Shown: positions 32,762 to 42,188 of the stretch, one piece after another | Position numbering within the stretch: position 1 is the stretch's first letter | How the letters are laid out: each line of letters starts with the position of its first letter | Assembly: GCF_003751305.1 (NCBI RefSeq) | Contig: NZ_RJKV01000002.1 | Span: forward strand, 1,302,001-1,366,000 | Source of the DNA: Stenotrophomonas rhizophila | GTDB taxonomy: Bacteria > Pseudomonadota > Gammaproteobacteria > Xanthomonadales > Xanthomonadaceae | DNA length: 64,000 nucleotides | Direction of reading: 5' to 3' | Notes under the pieces: generated by a model | Told to the model about the DNA's origin: nothing | Seen by the model: only the letters and a program-made list of their open reading frames with translations | The model's database searches: none | Position numbers and translations under genes: made by a program

Positions 32762-33026
32762 GAGGGTCTGGGGCGGGGATAAGCGGTCGATTTTAGAACG
32801 TGTCGGGGGCTTTGGGGGGATGTGGCCGGGGCGGGGCTGTCGGCGGGTATCTGACTGAAACGACACCGGTACACCTGTGGCGCTCGGGGCAACAGGCCCG
32901 CCGTTGCGGGCTTCCGGCCGGCGGCCCGGTCCGGACTATGGGCAGAAACGTCACGGACGGGTAATGTTCAGCCCCTTGTGCCTGCCACTGCCTACACTAT
33001 CCCCCTTGTCCTTTTCCCTGTTGCCA

Positions 33027-33599
33027 ATGAAATCCGCTTCGTTGTTGACGCTGGTCTGCGTGCTCGGAAGTGCCGCCTTCGGGGCGTGCGCCCAGGACAG
33101 TGAGGTGCGCAACCGGGTCGTGATCGTGGAGAACGTGAAGTTCGACTACGCCCAGGTGCTCAACGTGGAACCCATCTTCCAGACCCTGCGGGCGACCCGC
33201 ACCGAGGAACACTGCGAGCCGGTCTCCACCCGCACCCTGGCACCGGTTAACGTCACCGGCGAGGAGCCGCAGGAAGACAAAGGCCGCTTCGGCCGTTTCA
33301 TGGATTCGGTGCGCTCGATCTTCCGCCGGGAGGATGGCAGCACCGACGAGAGCGCCTATCAGGAGACCGTCGTGGTCGAGAAGCCGCCGGCCAACACCGG
33401 GCCGCTGCTGACCCGCGATTGCAAGATCATCCCGGTCGGCCGCGAGTTCCGCCGCCCGATCGCTTATGACGTGGACTATGTCTACAAGGGCACCAAGTAC
33501 CGCTCCCGCCTGCCGGAAGACCCGGGCAACCGGCTCAAGATCCGGGTCTCGATCACCCCTTGGGTGGGCAACGAGCAGGCCGGTGGCGCCAACCCGTGA
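33027..33599 (+). CDS. secreted xanthomonad protein related to YcfJ-type proteins but without glycine zipper
   Basis: A 190-residue protein with signal peptide (LLTLVCVLGSAAFGACAQ). The first part, FDYAQVLNVEPIFQTLRAT with a conserved CEP, and the C-terminal block RRPIAYDVDYVYKGTKYRSRLPEDPGNRLKIRVSITP resemble the two ends of glycine-zipper 2TM (YcfJ) proteins. The zipper that normally lies between them is absent, replaced by a charged stretch (EEPQEDKGRFGRFMDSVRSIFRRED). It is probably periplasmic; function unknown. ATG 33027 is chosen over the 50-codon extension because the signal peptide starts there. Confidence 0.75.
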   Translation: MKSASLLTLVCVLGSAAFGACAQDSEVRNRVVIVENVKFDYAQVLNVEPIFQTLRATRTEEHCEPVSTRTLAPVNVTGEEPQEDKGRFGRFMDSVRSIFRREDGSTDESAYQETVVVEKPPANTGPLLTRDCKIIPVGREFRRPIAYDVDYVYKGTKYRSRLPEDPGNRLKIRVSITPWVGNEQAGGANP

Positions 33600-33632: not shown

Positions 33633-33650
33633 CCTGAATTTCCATTCAGG
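33633..33650 (+). promoter_or_regulatory. candidate ARG box (ArgR operator)
   Basis: CCTGAAT-TTCC-ATTCAGG is a perfect 7-bp dyad containing TGAAT-N4-ATTCA, the core of the ArgR consensus. It lies directly upstream of a possible promoter (TTGCAC 33653-33658, 17 nt, AAAGAT 33676-33681 with a TG extension) and 310 nt before argF'. Confidence 0.6.
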
Positions 33651-33689
33651 CCTTGCACCCACCCCGGGTGCATGCAAAGATGGGCGGCC

Positions 33690-33791
33690 ATGAAACTCAC
33701 CGACTTCCAGCACGACACCAGCGCCGCCCGTATGGCTACGGGCATGACGTCGCGTGCCCGCCGACCGGAACCCCACATTTTCGCTGGGTAA
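33690..33791 (+). CDS. candidate 33-residue leader peptide of the arginine operon
   Basis: The reading frame runs from ATG 33690 to TAA 33789-33791 and encodes MKLTDFQHDTSAARMATG then MTSRARRPEPHIFAG. Arg codons CGT, CGC and CGA lie at 33753, 33759 and 33762, within four codons, with one more at 33729. The stop codon overlaps GCTGGGT (33783-33789), which duplicates the 3' arm of the terminator at 33817-33845. A ribosome at the stop would mask that sequence, and a ribosome stalled at the Arg codons would free it. The Shine-Dalgarno sequence is weak. Coding status is inferred from this architecture. Confidence 0.45.
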   Translation: MKLTDFQHDTSAARMATGMTSRARRPEPHIFAG

Positions 33792-33816
33792 CCGGAGCTT
33801 CGTGCTGTCTGTTCGG

Positions 33817-33845
33817 AAAACCCAGCCCCCGCGCTGGGTTTTTTC
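33817..33845 (+). terminator. attenuator-type terminator before argF'
   Basis: AAAACCCAGC-CCCCGC-GCTGGGTTTTTT is a strong rho-independent hairpin. It sits 115 nt before the argF' start and after the leader peptide. Its 5' arm ACCCAGC (33820-33826) can pair either with GCTGGGT at 33833-33839 (terminator) or with GCTGGGT at 33783-33789 (antiterminator). Confidence 0.85.
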
Positions 33846-33959
33846 GTTTCTACGATCTGAAAAGTTTCATCTGTATACGTTTTGTTGAGCCCTGAACGCG
33901 CCCCGGCGCCCCCAACCTCCGCCGGAAACGGTGGAAAACCAGCCGCAAAGGATCGATCG

Positions 33960-34970
33960 ATGTCCCTGAAGCACTTCCTGAACACCCAGGATTGGAGCCG
34001 CACCGACCTGGATGCCCTGTTGACCCAGGCCGCGTTGTTCAAGCGCAACAAACTGGGCGACGAGCTCAAGGGCAAGTCGATTGCCCTGGTGTTCTTCAAC
34101 CCCTCCATGCGTACCCGCACCAGCTTCGAGCTGGGCGCGTTCCAGCTGGGTGGCCACGCGATCGTGCTGCAGCCGGGCAAAGACGCCTGGCCGATCGAGT
34201 TCAACCTGGGCTCGGTGATGGACGGGGACACCGAGGAGCACATCGCCGAAGTGGCCAAGGTGCTGGGCCGCTATGTGGACCTGATCGGCGTGCGTGCCTT
34301 CCCGAAGTTCATCGACTGGACCAAAGACCGCGAAGACGAGGTGCTCAAGAGCTTCGCCAAGTACTCGCCGGTGCCGGTGATCAACATGGAAACCATCACC
34401 CACCCGTGCCAGGAGCTGGCCCATGTGATGGCGCTGCAGGAACACTTCGGTACCCAGGACCTGCGCGGCAAGAAGTACGTGCTGACCTGGACCTACCATC
34501 CCAAGCCGCTGAACACCGCCGTGGCCAACTCGGCACTGACCATCGCCACCCGCATGGGCATGGACGTGACCCTGCTGTGCCCGACCCCGGATTACATCCT
34601 GGATGAGCGCTACATGGGCTGGGCCGAGCAGAACGTCGCCGAGAGCGGCGGTTCGCTGCAGGTCAGCCATGACATCGCCAGCGCCTACGCCGGCGCGGAC
34701 GTGGTGTACGCCAAGAGCTGGGGCGCGCTGCCGTTCTTCGGCAACTGGGAGCCGGAGAAGCCGATCCGCGACCAGTACAAGCACTTCATCGTCGACGAAG
34801 CCAAGATGGCGCTCACCAACAACGGTGTCTTCAGCCACTGCCTGCCGCTGCGCCGCAACGTGAAGGCGACCGACGGCGTGATGGATTCGGCGCAGTGCAT
34901 CGCGATCGACGAAGCTGAAAACCGCCTGCACGTGCAGAAGGCGATCATGTCGGCGCTGATCGGCCGCTAA
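33960..34970 (+). CDS. argF': N-acetylornithine carbamoyltransferase
   Basis: A 336-residue transcarbamylase that acts on N-acetylornithine to give N-acetylcitrulline, the arginine route found in Xanthomonas. The carbamoyl-phosphate loop reads [17 protein letters not shown]. The insert [27 protein letters not shown] holds the Glu and Trp residues that define the acetylornithine-specific enzyme, and THPCQELAH and [13 protein letters not shown] complete the site. ATG 33960 is chosen because the upstream extension would cross the leader. It is the first structural gene of the arginine cluster. Confidence 0.96.
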
Positions 34971-35062: not shown

Positions 35063-36256
35063 ATGAGCAAGAAAGACATCGTCCTGGCCTTCTCCGGCGG
35101 ACTCGACACCAGCTTCTGCGTGCCCTACCTGCAGGAGCGCGGCTACAACGTGCACACCGTGTTCGCCGATACCGGCGGCGTGGATGACGAAGAGCGCGAT
35201 TTCATCGAGCAGCGTGCCGCCGAGCTGGGCGTCACCACCCATGTCACCGTCGATGGTGGCCCGGCGATCTGGAGTGGCTTCGTCAAGCCGTTCGTGTGGG
35301 CCGGCGAAGGCTACCAGGGCCAGTACCCGCTGCTGGTCTCCGATCGCTACCTGATCGTGGATGCCGCGCTCAAGCGCGCCGCCGAACTGGGCACCAACAT
35401 CATCGCCCACGGCTGCACCGGCATGGGCAACGACCAGGTCCGTTTCGATCTGGCCGTGAAGGCATTGGGCGATTACCAGATCGTCGCGCCGATCCGTGAA
35501 ATCCAGAAGGAACACACCCAGACCCGCGCCTACGAGCAGAAGTACCTGGAAGAGCGTGGCTTCGGCGTGCGTGCCAAGCAGCAGGCCTACACGATCAACG
35601 AGAACCTGCTCGGCCTGACCATGTCCGGCGGCGAGATCGACCGTTGGGAAGCGCCGGGCGAGGGTGCCCGCGGCTGGTGCGCCCCGCGCAGCGAATGGCC
35701 AGTCGAGCCGCTCACCGTCACCCTGAAGTTCGTCGAAGGCGAAGCCGTCGAGCTGGACGGCAAAGCGCTGCCGGGTGAGCAGATCCTGGCCAAGCTCAAC
35801 AAGCTGTTCGCCCCGTACGGCGTCGGCCGTGGCGTCTACACCGGTGACACCGTGATCGGCCTGAAGGGCCGCATCGTGTTCGAAGCCCCCGGCCTGGTCT
35901 CGCTGCTGGCCGCACACCGCGCGCTAGAAGATGCGGTGCTGACCAAGCAGCAGAACCGCTTCAAGCCGGACGTGGCACGCAAGTGGGTGGAGCTGGTGTA
36001 CGAAGGCTTCTACCACGACCCGCTCAAGACCGACATCGAAGCCTTCCTGAAGTCCTCGCAGACCAAGGTCAACGGCGAAGTGGTGCTGGAAACCCGCGGT
36101 GGCCGTGTGGATGCCGTGGCCGTGAAGTCGCCGCACCTGCTCAATGCCAAGGGCGCCACCTATGCACAGTCGGCGGACTGGGGCGTGGAAGAAGCCGAAG
36201 GGTTCATCAAGCTGTTCGGCATGAGCTCGACGTTGTATGCGCAGGTGAATCGCTGA
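35063..36256 (+). CDS. argG: argininosuccinate synthase
   Basis: A 397-residue ATP-dependent ligase that joins citrulline and aspartate. The N-type ATP pyrophosphatase loop is [32 protein letters not shown] and the citrulline/aspartate-binding segment [17 protein letters not shown] are present. ATG 35063 ([13 protein letters not shown]) is preferred to TTG 35048. In this pathway citrulline arises after deacetylation of acetylcitrulline by the ArgE-like enzyme encoded 0.5 kb downstream. A GC-rich hairpin (36274-36298) without T-run follows the gene. Confidence 0.96.
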
Positions 36257-36319
36257 TCGATTGATCGACGTGTCCGGCGGGTGCGCGCTACCCGCCGGGC
36301 GTTGAACCGGACCGAGACC

Positions 36320-36769
36320 ATGAACCTGCACGTCTGCACCGATAAACAGCGGCTCGATGTCGCGCTGATTCACCAGTATCTGTCGACCCAGGCGTCTTGG
36401 AGCGAAGGGATTCCACGGGAAACGGTGCAGCGGGCGATCGACGGCTCCTTGTGCGTCGGCGGCTATCTGGACGATGGCAGCCAAGTGGCCTTTGCCCGGG
36501 TGATCACCGACGGTGCGACCTTCGGCTACCTGGCCGATGTGTTCGTGTTGGCCGACCACCGCGGGCGCGGCTACAGCACGGCGTTGATCGAGGCGTTGCT
36601 GGCGGAGCCGGCGCTGCAGGGTCTGCGCCGTTTCATGCTCGCCACCCGCGACGCGCATGGCCTGTACGCGCGTTTCGGGTTCGCTGCTCCGGCGCGCCCG
36701 GAGCTGCTCATGGAAATAGCACGACCCACGATCTACCAGGATGCGGCCGCTGCCGCAGTGAAGGACTGA
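36320..36769 (+). CDS. GNAT family N-acetyltransferase
   Basis: A 149-residue acetyltransferase. The acetyl-CoA site is VFVLADHRGRGYSTALIEALL (motif A, RxxGxG/A form), with LARVI-like strand FARVITDGATFGYLADVFV before it and HGLYARFGF after it. It is placed between argG and argE, 5 nt before the latter. Small GNATs of this type are often amino-acid or antibiotic acetylases, but the substrate cannot be read here. It is unlikely to be the committed NAGS, because a NAGS domain is fused to ArgB below. Confidence 0.85.
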   Translation: MNLHVCTDKQRLDVALIHQYLSTQASWSEGIPRETVQRAIDGSLCVGGYLDDGSQVAFARVITDGATFGYLADVFVLADHRGRGYSTALIEALLAEPALQGLRRFMLATRDAHGLYARFGFAAPARPELLMEIARPTIYQDAAAAAVKD

Positions 36770-36774
36770 CCCGC

Positions 36775-37863
36775 ATGCTCGAAAACACCCTTACCCATCT
36801 GCAGGCCCTGGTTTCGTTCGACACGCGCAATCCGCCGCGTGCGATCACCACCGGCGGCATCTTCGATTACCTGCGTGCGAACCTGCCCGGGTTCAACGTG
36901 GAGGTGATCGACCATGGCGACGGTGCAGTCAGCCTGTATGCGGTGCGTGGCACCCCGAAGTACCTGTTCAACGTGCACCTGGATACCGTGCCGGATTCGC
37001 CGCATTGGACGGCCGACCCGCATGTGATGCGGCGCGCCGAGGACCGCGTGATCGGCCTGGGCGTGTGTGACATCAAGGGCGCCGCGGCTGCGTTGGTGGC
37101 GGCTGCGAACGCCAGCGATGGCGACGCCGCGTTTCTGTTCTCCAGCGACGAGGAGGCCAACGACCCGCGCTGCATCGCCGCCTTCCTCGCCCGTGGCATT
37201 GCGTATGAAGCGGTGCTGGTGGCCGAGCCGACGATGAGCGAAGCGGTACTCGCGCACCGTGGCATCAGCTCGGTGCTGATGCAGTTCACGGGTCGCGCCG
37301 GGCATGCCTCGGGCAAGCAGGATGCGGCCGCCAGCGCACTGCACCAGGCGATGCGCTGGGGCAACCGCGCGCTGGACCATGTGGAGTCGCTGTCGCATGC
37401 ACGCTTTGGCGGGCTGACCGGCCTGCGCTTCAACATCGGGCGCGTGGAAGGCGGCATCAAGGCCAACATGATCGCGCCCGCGGCCGAGGTGCGGTTCGGC
37501 TTCCGCCCGCTGCCCTCGATGGACATCGATGCGCTGCTGGCCACCTTCGCCGGGTTCGCCGAGCCGGCCGCCGCGGTGTTCACCGAGACCTTCCGCGGCC
37601 CGAGTTTCCCGGCCGGCGACATTGCCGAAGCAGAAAACCGCCGCCTGGCCGCGCGCGACGTGGCCGATGCGCTGGATATCCCGATCGGCAATGCGGTGGA
37701 TTTCTGGACCGAGGCTTCGCTGTTCTCGGCCGGGGGTTACACCACGCTGGTATACGGCCCGGGCGACATCGCCCAGGCCCATACCGCCGATGAGTTCGTG
37801 ACGCTGGAGCAGCTGCAGCGTTACGCCGAGTCCGTGCACCGCATCATTGCGCACGGCGCCTGA
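36775..37863 (+). CDS. argE: acetylornithine/acetylcitrulline deacetylase (M20 family)
   Basis: A 362-residue di-zinc M20 hydrolase. Metal and catalytic motifs: [14 protein letters not shown] (His/Asp), [15 protein letters not shown] (Asp), SSDEEANDP (catalytic Glu and ligand Glu), AEPT, and QAHTADEFV near the C-terminus (His). Annotated as ArgE, but with an acetylornithine carbamoyltransferase in the same cluster its natural substrate is probably N-acetylcitrulline, as shown for the X. campestris enzyme. ATG 36775 follows the GNAT stop by 5 nt. Confidence 0.92.
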
Positions 37864-37936
37864 TCGAATGACGCCGTCGTGGTCCCCCACTGACGGAACT
37901 CCCATCGCGGCCCCGGCCGCCTGCGACGATATCGAA

Positions 37937-39262
37937 ATGCCTTCTTCCCAGCCCCACCGCCAGACCCGTCAGACCATCGTGCGCCTGCTCTCGAGCATGG
38001 CCAGCGCGAAGGAGATCAGCCAGTACCTCAAGCGTTTCTCGCAGCTGGACGCCAAGCGCTTCGCCGTGGTCAAAGTCGGCGGCGCGGTGCTGCGCGATGA
38101 CCTGGAGGCGCTGACCTCCTCGCTGTCGTTCCTGCAGGAAGTCGGCCTGACCCCGATCGTGCTGCATGGCGCCGGCCCGCAGCTGGACGCCGAACTGTCG
38201 GCGGCCGGCATCGAGAAGCAGACCGTGAACGGCCTGCGCGTGACCTCGGCCGAAGGCCTGGCGATCGTGCGCCGGGTGTTCCAGGCCTCCAATCTGCAAC
38301 TGGTCGAAGCGCTGCAGCAGAACGGTGCGCGCGCGACCTCGATTACCGGCGGCGTGTTCGAAGCCGAGTATCTGGATCAGGCCACCTACGGCCTGGTCGG
38401 TGAAGTCAAGAAGGTCAACCTGGCCCCGATCGAAGCCAGTCTGCGCGCCGGCTCGATCCCGGTGATCACCAGCCTGGGCGAAACCCGCTGCGGGCAGATC
38501 CTCAACGTCAACGCCGATTTCGCCGCCAACGAGCTGGTGCAGGAACTGCAGCCGTACAAGATCATCTTCCTGACCGGTACCGGTGGTCTGCTCGATGAAG
38601 AGGGCAAGGTGATCGACTCGATCAACCTCTCCACCGAGTACGACCAGCTGATGCAGCAGCCGTGGATCCATGGCGGCATGCGGGTCAAGATCGAACAGAT
38701 CAAGGACCTGCTGGATCGGCTGCCACTGGAGTCCTCGGTGTCGATCACGCGGCCGGCGGACCTGGCCAAGGAACTGTTCACCCACAAGGGCTCCGGCACG
38801 CTGGTGCGCAAGGGTGAGAAAGTGCTGCGCGCTACCGCATGGGATGCGCTCGATCTGCCGCGCCTGAAGCAGCTGATCGAATCCAGCTTCGGCCGTACCC
38901 TGGTGCCGGATTATTTCCAGAAGACCAAGCTGCTGCGCGCCTACGTGAGCGAGAACTATCGCACCGCAGTGATCCTCACCGACGAGCCCGAAGGCGTCTA
39001 CCTGGACAAGTTCGCGGTGCTCGACGACGCGCAGGGCGAAGGCCTGGGCCGCGCGGTCTGGAATGTCATGCTGGACGAAACCCCGCAGCTGTTCTGGCGC
39101 TCGCGCAACGGCAACCCGATCAACCACTTCTACTACGCGCAATCCGACGGGTGCTACAAGCAGGGCACCTGGAAGGTGTTCTGGTTCGGCGCCGATGGCT
39201 TCGACCGCATCAAAGCGTACGTCGAGCATTGCGCCGCTCGCACCCCCAGCCTGGAGGGCTGA
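37937..39262 (+). CDS. argB: bifunctional N-acetylglutamate synthase/kinase (NAGS/NAGK fusion)
   Basis: A 441-residue fusion. The N-terminal amino-acid kinase domain (about 1-285) phosphorylates N-acetylglutamate: [48 protein letters not shown]. The C-terminal GNAT-like DUF619 domain (about 295-440) makes N-acetylglutamate, with [35 protein letters not shown] and [14 protein letters not shown]. This vertebrate-like architecture is known from Xanthomonas and Maricaulis. It explains why no separate argA or argJ is in the cluster. ATG 37937 is chosen; ATG 37868 is an in-frame alternative. Confidence 0.94.
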
Positions 39263-39267
39263 ACCTC

Positions 39268-39863
39268 ATGAATCTCGCCGATTGGACCAAGGTCCCCACA
39301 CTGGCCGGCACACACGCCCGGCTGGAGCCGCTGCAGATGGCGCACATCGATGGCCTGCGCGGTGCACTGGGGGATGGCACCTTGTCCAGGCTCTGGTACA
39401 CCCAGGTGCCCAGTGCGAAGACCATGACGGCCTATGTCCAGGCCGCGCTGCAGGCGCAGGCCGAGGGCAAGGTGTTGCCGTTCGTGGTCCTCAACGAGGC
39501 CGATGAAGTGGTCGGCACCACCCGCTACTACGATCTGGACGCCGAGGTGCCGCGCCTGAGCATCGGCTACACCTGGTATGGCGAGGCCGCCCAACGCACC
39601 GGCATCAACACCGAAACCAAGCTGATGCTGCTCACCCACGCCTTCGAGCGGCTGGAGTGCCTGAGCGTGGTGTTCGAGACCAGCTGGTTCAACCTCACCT
39701 CGCGCACCGCGATCGCGCGGTTGGGGGCCAAGCAGGACGGCGTGCTGCGCAACCACAAGCGCCACCCGGATGGCACCCCGCGCGACACCGTCATCTTCTC
39801 CATCATCGATGCGGAATGGCAGGGGGTGAAACGCCACCTGCAGCACCGCCTGGACGCACACGC

Positions 39864-39867
<4 letters not shown>
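39268..39867 (+). CDS. RimJ/RimL-type GNAT N-acetyltransferase in the arg cluster
   Basis: A 199-residue acetyltransferase of the RimJ/RimL branch. It has an N-terminal [14 protein letters not shown] strand-helix, [23 protein letters not shown] with the family WxG pattern, the acetyl-CoA region [17 protein letters not shown], and [23 protein letters not shown]. It lies 5 nt after argB and overlaps argC by 4 nt (ATGA), so it is translationally locked into the operon. The substrate is unknown; a role with acetylated arginine intermediates is possible but not shown. Confidence 0.87.
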
Positions 39868-40817
<950 letters not shown>

Positions 40818-40892
40818 ATTCCCACGGCGCAGCGCGGCCCCCTGCGCGCGCCCTGACAACCCGGCGGAGCGAATCCGCCTACGGAGCAAGAC

Positions 40893-42188
40893 ATGGCAGA
40901 CCTTCTGTGGCAGAAGCCCGGCGTGGCGGTAGACGCCAAGATCCAGACCTTCCTGGCCGGCGATGATGTGATCCTGGACCGCGAGTTCTTCCTGTACGAC
41001 GTGGCGGCCAGCAAGGCGCATGCGCAGGGCCTGGAGAACATCGGCATCCTTGGCGACGACGAGCGCATCGGCCTGCAGCGCGAGCTGGATGTGTTGGCCG
41101 AGGATTTCCGCAGTGGTGCGTTCGTGCTGGATGAGCGCTTCGAGGATTGCCACTCGGCGATCGAAGCGCGCCTGACCGAGCGCCTCGGCGATGCCGGCCG
41201 CAAGATCCACACCGGCCGCAGCCGCAACGACCAGATCCTGGTGGCGACCCGGCTGTGGCTGAAGGACAAGCTGCTGCGCGTGGCCGAGCTGAGCCGCGAA
41301 ATCGCCAAGGTCGCGCTGGATCGCGCCGAGGCCGAAAAAGACCTGCCGGTGCCGGGCTACACCCACATCCAGCGCGCCGTGGTGTCCTCGGCGGGCATGT
41401 GGTGGGCCGGCTGGGCCGAGGCCTTCATCGACAACGCGATCCGCGCGCACGACACCTTCAACCTGGTCGATGCCAATCCGCTCGGCACGGCCGCCGGTTA
41501 TGGCGTGAACCTGCCGCTGGACCGCGCGCACACCACCGAGGCACTCGGTTTCGCACGGATGCAGATCTCGCCGATCTACGCGCAGCTCTCGCGCGGCAAG
41601 TTCGAGCTGGCCGCCCTGGAAGCGCTTGGCGGCGCTACGCTGGATCTGCGTCGCATCGCGTGGGACCTGTCGTTGTTCACCAGCGGCGAGTTCGGCTTTG
41701 TCGCGCTGCCGGCGCAATACACCACCGGCAGTTCGATCATGCCGAACAAGCGCAACCCGGACGTGATCGAACTGATGCGCGCGACCCACGCCAGCGTGGC
41801 CGCGGCCCGCACCGAGATCGAGCAGCTGCTGTCGCTGCCGTCGGGCTATCACCGCGATCTGCAGAGCAGCAAGGGCGCGATCTTCCATGGCTTCGGCCGC
41901 GGCCTGGCCGCGCTGGAACTGCTGCCGGCGCTGCTGGCCAATCTGGAATGGCGCGACGACAAGCTGCGTGCGGCGATCGATTCGGGCATGTACGCCACCG
42001 ATGTCGCCGTGGAAGCGGCGGTGGCCGGTGTACCGTTCCGCGAGGCCTACAAGGCCGCCGCGGCGGCGGCGGATACGGCCGGGCAGGGGCGTACCCCCGA
42101 AGGCAGCCTGGCCGCGCGCGTGTCGCCCGGCGCGGCGGCCGACCTGCGGCTGGATGAACTGCGCGCCCGCTGGGCCGCACTGGTGTAA
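40893..42188 (+). CDS. argH: argininosuccinate lyase
   Basis: A 431-residue fumarase-superfamily lyase that releases arginine and fumarate. The superfamily signature is [19 protein letters not shown]; the substrate-site motifs [11 protein letters not shown] and [10 protein letters not shown] are both intact. The protein is somewhat shorter than the E. coli enzyme, as in other xanthomonads. A terminator follows, which makes argH the probable end of the arginine transcript. Confidence 0.95.

Follow-up and report, generated by a model that had tools for sequence, protein, structure and literature searches.

A candidate arginine attenuator with a conserved leader peptide precedes argF' in Stenotrophomonas rhizophila and its relatives, and matches the small RNA Xoo5

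The window analysed here is a 64,000-nucleotide stretch of the Stenotrophomonas rhizophila genome (contig NZ_RJKV01000002.1, positions 1,302,001 to 1,366,000). The region of interest lies upstream of argF', and contains the following features:

33653..33681, + strand: promoter, with the -35 element TTGCAC at 33653-33658, a 17-nt spacer carrying TG, and the -10 element AAAGAT at 33676-33681
33688..33811, + strand: match to RF02242, "Xanthomonadaceae sRNA Xoo5" (115.1 bits, gathering score 50; model positions 1-124 of 124)
33690..33791, + strand: leader peptide ORF of 33 codons, stop TAA at 33789-33791, frame retained in relatives
33726..33764, + strand: conserved peptide core (from residue and codon counts in 166 leaders)
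33753..33764, + strand: regulatory Arg codons CGT GCC CGC CGA; CGA at 33762-33764 is the presumed stall codon
33783..33789, + strand: segment 2, GCTGGGT, the 5' strand of the antiterminator (from its fixed distance to CGA, covariation and folds)
33817..33826, + strand: segment 3, AAAACCCAGC, common to antiterminator and terminator (from covariation and folds)
33833..33845, + strand: segment 4 and T run, the 3' strand of the terminator, with the second GCTGGGT copy at 33833-33839
33960..34970, + strand: argF', N-acetylornithine carbamoyltransferase (641.4 bits to NCBIfam PRK04523.1, whose cut-off is 288)
35066..42188, + strand: arginine cluster on the same strand, argG, GNAT, argE, acetylglutamate kinase, GNAT, argC and argH (NCBIfam)

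Read directly from the window, the ORF at 33690-33791 encodes MKLTDFQHDTSAARMATGMTSRARRPEPHIFAG followed by the stop. Its core at 33726-33764 is AARMATGMTSRARR without its first A, and the consensus is A-x-M-A-A/S-G-M-T-S-R-A-R-R. The final T of GCTGGGT at 33783-33789 is also the first base of the TAA stop, and ACCCAGC, at 33820-33826, falls within segment 3. The terminator hairpin reads AAAACCCAGC-CCCCGC-GCTGGGTTTT, and is followed by T. The original prediction had placed an attenuator here on the strength of the ORF, its Arg codons, the terminator, both GCTGGGT copies and ACCCAGC, and we found every one of these at its coordinates. The Rfam identity, a probable transcription start beside the ATG, and the conservation of the peptide outside the Arg residues are additional to that prediction.

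We propose argF' (33960-34970) as the gene under the control of the leader, and the cluster at 35066-42188 may be co-regulated. The products of argG, argE, the acetylglutamate kinase gene, argC and argH were above their NCBIfam cut-offs. The two acetyltransferase-like (GNAT) genes inside the cluster, at 36323-36769 and 39268-39867, reached none. Immediately 5' of the leader is a gene (32877-33599) whose product had no NCBIfam match over the cut-off; its C-terminus, of the form DPGNRL.IRVS.TP, also precedes the leader in several relatives.

Of 149 genomes of the family, 108 gave an RF02242 hit at E ≤ 0.001, 59 of them over the cut-off. The 14 control genomes gave none. We read the loci of 110 of these hits (30 + 80), and observed that 106 were directly upstream of argF', with MTSRARR in frame in all 106. 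The other four were weak hits away from argF' (L105, L107, L109, L110) and were left out; one of these genomes has a true leader at L150. A hit at a contig end (G135) and L169 (87 nt before argF') were also left out. There were 42 genomes without an argF'-linked hit, and argF' was present in 37 of them. Thirty of these 37 argF' loci were read, and the leader was seen in 29, the remaining one being cut by a contig end. In the full set of 167 argF' loci, an upstream MTSRARR ORF was present in 166 (165 distinct), and the other one was cut by a contig end. It should be mentioned that 31 of the 167 loci were retrieved via the DNA motif itself, the others coming through RF02242 or the ArgF' protein. 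Two loci of the family were missed by the motif search, L207 with MASRARR and L208 with MTSRARR after SS, and these are outside the 166.

The motif GGNATGACNTCNCGNGCNCGNCGN was found in 161 of 299 genomes of the order (the reversed control gave 0 among the rows), and in 5 of 369 genomes of the class, all five from the same order. A scan of genome_contigs (84,980 species) yielded at least 119 stretches. Among the 80 matches listed, argF' lay within 600 nt in 76, three were cut off, and one (Mycobacterium) was without argF'. The genera among the matches listed were Xanthomonas, Stenotrophomonas, Lysobacter, Luteimonas, Pseudoxanthomonas, Dyella, Rhodanobacter, Frateuria and Dokdonella. An alignment of relatives had been named in the original prediction as its check; the frame, the Arg codons, CGA and the GCTGGGT duplicate all proved to be conserved, and the three strands covary.

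We further compared codon choice in the 166 leaders with the argF' genes at the same loci (3359 Arg codons). CGA fills the third and last Arg place in 162 of 166 leaders, against 1.4% of the background Arg codons. CGA was one codon off in three of the four exceptions, and missing in one (L057). At the three Arg places together CGC, CGT or CGA was used in 497 of 498 cases, and CGG once, against 11.6% in the background. CGG was frequent (37/106) at a variable Arg five codons ahead of the motif. CGC, CGT and CGA are decoded by the tRNA with the anticodon ACG, the A being converted to inosine, and this genome carries the gene for tRNA-Arg(acg) three times in tandem. A leader-peptide assay in Salmonella, as far as its account covers these codons, reports slower translation of CGA than of CGC and CGT (PMC4046918).

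We next consider the alternative stems. A terminator was found by rule in 164 of 166 leaders, and the remaining two have a hairpin with a weaker T run. The three strands were assigned in 152 leaders; 14 were left out, several because the hairpin finder chose another stem, and seven of these 14 were re-found for the fold analysis. The middle bases of segments 2-3-4 (n=152) were U-A-U in 95, C-G-C in 28, U-G-C in 20, C-A-U in 8 and G-G-C in 1. These bases can pair in 3:4 in 152/152 leaders and in 2:3 in 143/152, with a 2:3 mismatch in 9/152. C-G-C occurs in 24/24 leaders of family f12; independent covariation events are few, since related genomes repeat the same change. The GCYGGGT copy of segment 2 begins 39 nt from the M codon in 126 of the 152, which places it 21 nt downstream of the first base in CGA.

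The folds were calculated with the ribosome edge assumed to lie 14 nt past CGA. With the ribosome on CGA and the RNA made through segment 3, at least seven of the last eight bases of the terminator 5' arm paired upstream in 148 of 166 leaders, as compared with 14% of shuffles. A looser cut of 5 paired bases gave 166/166 against 54% of shuffles, a poorer separation. With the ribosome at the stop, the terminator formed in 166/166 folds. In full-length folds the terminator was the minimum in 155/166 leaders when the ribosome occupied CGA, and in 154 when no ribosome was placed. As the terminator wins these full-length folds, the attenuation model needs 2:3 to be formed first. Together, the covariation and the folds indicate an antiterminator that excludes the terminator and stands at a fixed distance from the Arg codons.

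A shuffle test on the best duplex anywhere before the terminator was also tried and rejected. It performed poorly (115/166 leaders with five or fewer of 100 shuffles as stable), since the C-rich arm finds a partner in any stretch rich in G. Fixed position, covariation and folding were used as evidence in its place. Some f3 leaders end their ORF well ahead of segment 2, and a ribosome at such a stop would cover this segment only in part.

RF02242 is the sole Rfam match in the window at gathering thresholds. In its sections on Xoo5, the source paper describes a non-coding sRNA known from Northern blots and without an assigned function, with bands of ~130 and ~100 nt, the ~130 nt band being confined to early growth (PMC3039613). 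The 5' end was obtained by RACE, and the length of 124 nt by RACE and cloning; the gene 3' of Xoo5, PXO_00353, is an N-acetylornithine carbamoyltransferase in Table 4 of that paper, i.e. argF' (PMC3039613). Since both lengths equal 124, we infer that position 1 of the RF02242 model (33688, two bases 5' of the ATG) is the reported RACE end. The leader RNA matches Xoo5, so far catalogued as an sRNA only, and it may now be read as a coding leader of argF'.

The promoter at 33653-33681 was not found by a generic sigma-70 scan. Using a pattern that was devised after viewing the sequences, the layout TTGC-(15-19 nt)-xAxx[AC]T-start codon was seen in 130 of 165 leaders (L065 was left out of this count), with a spacer of 17 in 124, against 0.1% of shuffles. 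The 35 leaders without this layout comprise 24 of f12, 7 of f3 and 4 of f1. A Shine-Dalgarno-like string was present ahead of the start in 29 of the 130. Position 33688 is the probable transcription start. The distance from the -10 element to the start codon is 5-10 nt, which agrees with the RACE end, and the leader is therefore nearly leaderless, at least in family f1.

When we examined the other families of the order, we observed that argF' in f4, f6, f7, f8, f9 and f10 was preceded by different Arg-cluster peptides and a terminator. Examples are ...NPRRRRVLQSTAG followed by the stop, ...LLRRRSRRPMS..., and ...VVRRRRPEKTMELFG followed by the stop. A rule for an Arg-rich leader with terminator, drawn up after viewing the sequences, was passed by 37 of 54 loci of f4-f11 and by 9 of 1080 dinucleotide shuffles. 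The passes were 16/16 in f7, 6/7 in f8, 9/15 in f9, 3/7 in f4, 2/2 in f6, 1/1 in f10, 0/1 in f5 and 0/5 in f11. The f4 and f8 failures were fragments or distant paralogues, and for L212 of f6 the rule chose another frame. Cluster codons in the 37 leaders were CGC 69, CGA 51, CGT 31, CGG 4 and AGA 3 (n=158). CGC, CGA and CGT thus make up 151/158, against 64% in the same argF' genes (642 Arg codons: CGC 38.5%, CGG 22.4%, CGT 17%, CGA 8.3%), and CGA is present in 31/37 leaders. The 2:3 duplex in these leaders beat shuffles at 5% in 9/37 (median 0.24), a weak type of test.

In three f8 leaders (L255, L257, L260), CUCUUUGG near the leader stop is complementary to CCAAAGAG, which lies in the terminator loop and 3' arm. 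The presumed antiterminator of these three leaders seems to employ another sequence, as supported by the duplex test for L260 and by eye for L255 and L257.

In a tree of 83 ArgF' proteins, the two leader types were largely separate. On this tree, 4 changes are required for the fixed motif; the starred branches alone require 1, and a single change is enough in 2% of the bootstrap trees. The rows L209 and L222 were assigned the fixed motif from their family, their upstream sequence being unreadable.

Bacterial arginine synthesis is usually explained by the repressor ArgR. The search for ArgR (PF01316), positive in 9 of the 14 control genomes, gave a hit in one of 41 relatives and, across the order, in 8 of 121 genomes. 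These hits all came from family f11. By the rule, the five loci read from f11 (L226-L230) lack an Arg-rich leader. Their carbamoyltransferase is 38-43% identical to ArgF', and an ArgR gene lies within about 1.5 kb. Across the order, the leaders share an Arg cluster decoded by a single tRNA, a terminator, and their position before argF'. In sequence terms this is the signature of attenuation by Arg-tRNA charging, and in one clade the peptide itself has become fixed.

The observations to be explained are the conserved frame, the Arg codons, the isoacceptor choice, the geometry, the strand covariation, the linkage to argF' and the scarcity of ArgR. We propose, with a probability of roughly 0.87, that the leader controls the arginine gene cluster by ribosome-mediated transcription attenuation and senses Arg-tRNA charging. 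Transcription would start about 2 nt ahead of the leader ATG. At low charging of the tRNA-Arg for CGC, CGT and CGA, the leading ribosome would stall with CGA (33762) in the A site, leaving segment 2 free to pair with segment 3 before segment 4 is synthesized. The 2:3 pairing would block the terminator, and argF' would be transcribed. With plentiful arginine, the ribosome would reach the stop codon and cover segment 2, the 3:4 terminator would form, and a short RNA, the Xoo5 of Xanthomonas, would be released. The stalling, its arginine dependence and termination in vivo are thus predictions of this scheme. The attenuation originally predicted is supported by conservation, by covariation, and by the Arg clusters in the different leaders of distant families. 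Against an attenuator stand the terminator as the minimum in most full-length folds, the 2:3 mismatches in 9/152 leaders, L152 (see below), the f3 stops and the 9/37 duplex result. In addition, no leader test was passed by the single f5 locus or by six of the 15 from f9.

The trp, his and leu operons are controlled by leader-peptide transcription attenuators. The argF' leader is like these in having end-product codons in a leader ORF, an antiterminator opposed to a terminator, and a biosynthetic gene 3' of it; a his leader was used in the assay cited above (PMC4046918). Unlike these, it uses arginine, has almost no 5' UTR, and relies on a small number of regulatory codons, among them a single fixed and rare CGA, the peptide being conserved beyond these in one clade. 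The Salmonella speF leader (ORF34/SpeFL) also has consecutive Arg codons in a conserved peptide and senses low arginine, but the outcome described there is RNase G cleavage and speF translation, with Rho, no intrinsic terminator and another gene (PMC6386406, in its account of this leader). Our leader peptide gave no Pfam match up to E = 1, to the SpeFL/ORF34 family PF10940 or to any other. In Sinorhizobium meliloti trpL (rnTrpL, peTrpL), too, the RNA starts at the leader ATG and the terminated leader is a detectable sRNA; the amino acid there is tryptophan, however, and trans action is the S. meliloti feature, according to the parts of the paper on trpL (PMC7298713). Among the openly licensed papers searched, we recognised no description of an arginine attenuator before argF' and found no arginine-dependent read-through of the argF' leader.

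With ArgR found in one family of the order only, the attenuator offers a directly testable answer for the control in the remaining families, and it may cover the whole arginine cluster. Xoo5 of Rfam gains a candidate cis function. Further, the two leader types in one order, Arg runs in one and a fixed peptide with one rare codon in the other, form a natural series, useful for asking how codon speed and the nascent chain jointly time the ribosome.

Classical attenuation alone leaves the near-invariant MA(A/S)GMTS ahead of the Arg codons unaccounted for. Ala(-3) is present in 166/166 leaders, Ala or Ser at -2 in 165/166 (A, S or T at -2 overall), Gly(-1) in 164/166 and Thr(+1) in 166/166. The effective codon numbers at Ala(-3), -2, Gly(-1) and Thr(+1) were 2.31, 2.88, 1.79 and 1.90, against 2.26, 2.26, 1.52 and 1.80 in argF' (the second value being for the 105 Ala at -2). 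As the residues are kept while their third bases are about as free as in argF', selection must act on the peptide. The N-terminal part and most residues after CGA vary. A riboswitch without translation was also considered, and was rejected on the coding-like variation of third positions at several conserved residues.

Third bases were constrained elsewhere. The Ser before the Arg codons (33750-33752) is TCG in 160/166 leaders against 40% in the background, Ala(-6) is GCC in 158/166, and the Ala between the Arg codons is GCG in 140/166 against 45% expected. Part of the constraint may therefore be on the RNA; the TCG and GCG preference may reflect RNA or decoding.

In one clade, MA(A/S)GMTSRARR has become fixed at the peptide level as well, which suggests that the nascent chain MA(A/S)GMTSRAR strengthens the pause. 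This leads to a tentative extension of the attenuation model, which we consider possible but rather less than an even bet: a codon-based arginine attenuator that has acquired a nascent-chain arrest module in the fixed-core clade. By priming the ribosome, MA(A/S)GMTSRAR would turn a small delay at the wobble-decoded CGA into a long stall. Three Arg codons would then replace the longer Arg runs of the sister families, and tuning by a pathway metabolite would be possible.

A stronger role for the peptide appears unlikely. Here, MA(A/S)GMTSRAR together with arginine, ornithine or N-acetylornithine (the ArgF' substrate) would itself stall the ribosome, with tRNA charging secondary. SpeFL stalls the ribosome with ornithine. 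Macrolide-dependent stalling at R-x-R was also considered. Conservation of the ~12 residues before CGA at the amino-acid level, their third bases varying about as much as in argF', would suit a ligand-sensing peptide. So would the Arg-Ala pair that occupies -2/-1 relative to the presumed P site, a placement shared with the RAP|P and RAG|P motifs of SecM/RAPP-type arrest peptides in the published account of that class (PMC10951233). However, a purely peptide-level sensor needs neither the CGA stall codon nor the avoidance of CGG; the peptides of the sister families are unrelated, Arg clusters being their sole common feature; and a stall under abundant arginine would turn the genes on, opposite to feedback. 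The leader has R-A-R-R at the stall site, not RAP(P/G) or RAG/P. It differs from the SecM/RAPP type in having Arg for Pro/Gly in the P site and the presumed A site and no protein-export gene, and since the Pro of those motifs is missing, we kept it out of that arrest class (PMC10951233, for the motifs it describes). Pro follows the presumed A-site codon in 141/166 leaders.

It is still less probable that the main role is in trans, with the Xoo5 sRNA or its peptide acting like rnTrpL/peTrpL of S. meliloti and the position before argF' secondary. Xoo5 RNA is detectable (PMC3039613), and a leaderless attenuator RNA and its peptide work in trans in S. meliloti (PMC7298713), as those papers report for these RNAs. 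But 106 of 110 RF02242 loci and 76 of the 80 motif matches listed are just upstream of argF', and the three strands and Arg codons suit cis control. In addition, the passages on Xoo5 report that Hfq loss left it unchanged and that its deletion gave normal growth on rich and minimal medium, flanking genes being unaffected according to the authors (PMC3039613). A trans-acting sRNA as the main function was rejected on these grounds. The predicted RNA ending at the terminator is ~158 nt, and the reported bands (~130, ~100) and cloned 3' end (124 nt) are shorter (PMC3039613). This size mismatch counts against the attenuator. So does the deletion without a growth phenotype, yet the loss of an attenuator need not slow growth.

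The least probable alternative, a constant partial terminator behind a translated but non-sensing leader, agrees with the terminator being the minimum in most full-length folds regardless of the ribosome, but leaves the Arg codons, CGA, the 21-nt spacing, the covarying segment 2 and the different Arg-rich leaders of other families unexplained.

In L152, where the locus has 54% G+C, the peptide is retained. CGA has moved one codon upstream, however, the last Arg codon is CGG, and there is no clear segment 2. L152 is perhaps a decaying attenuator.
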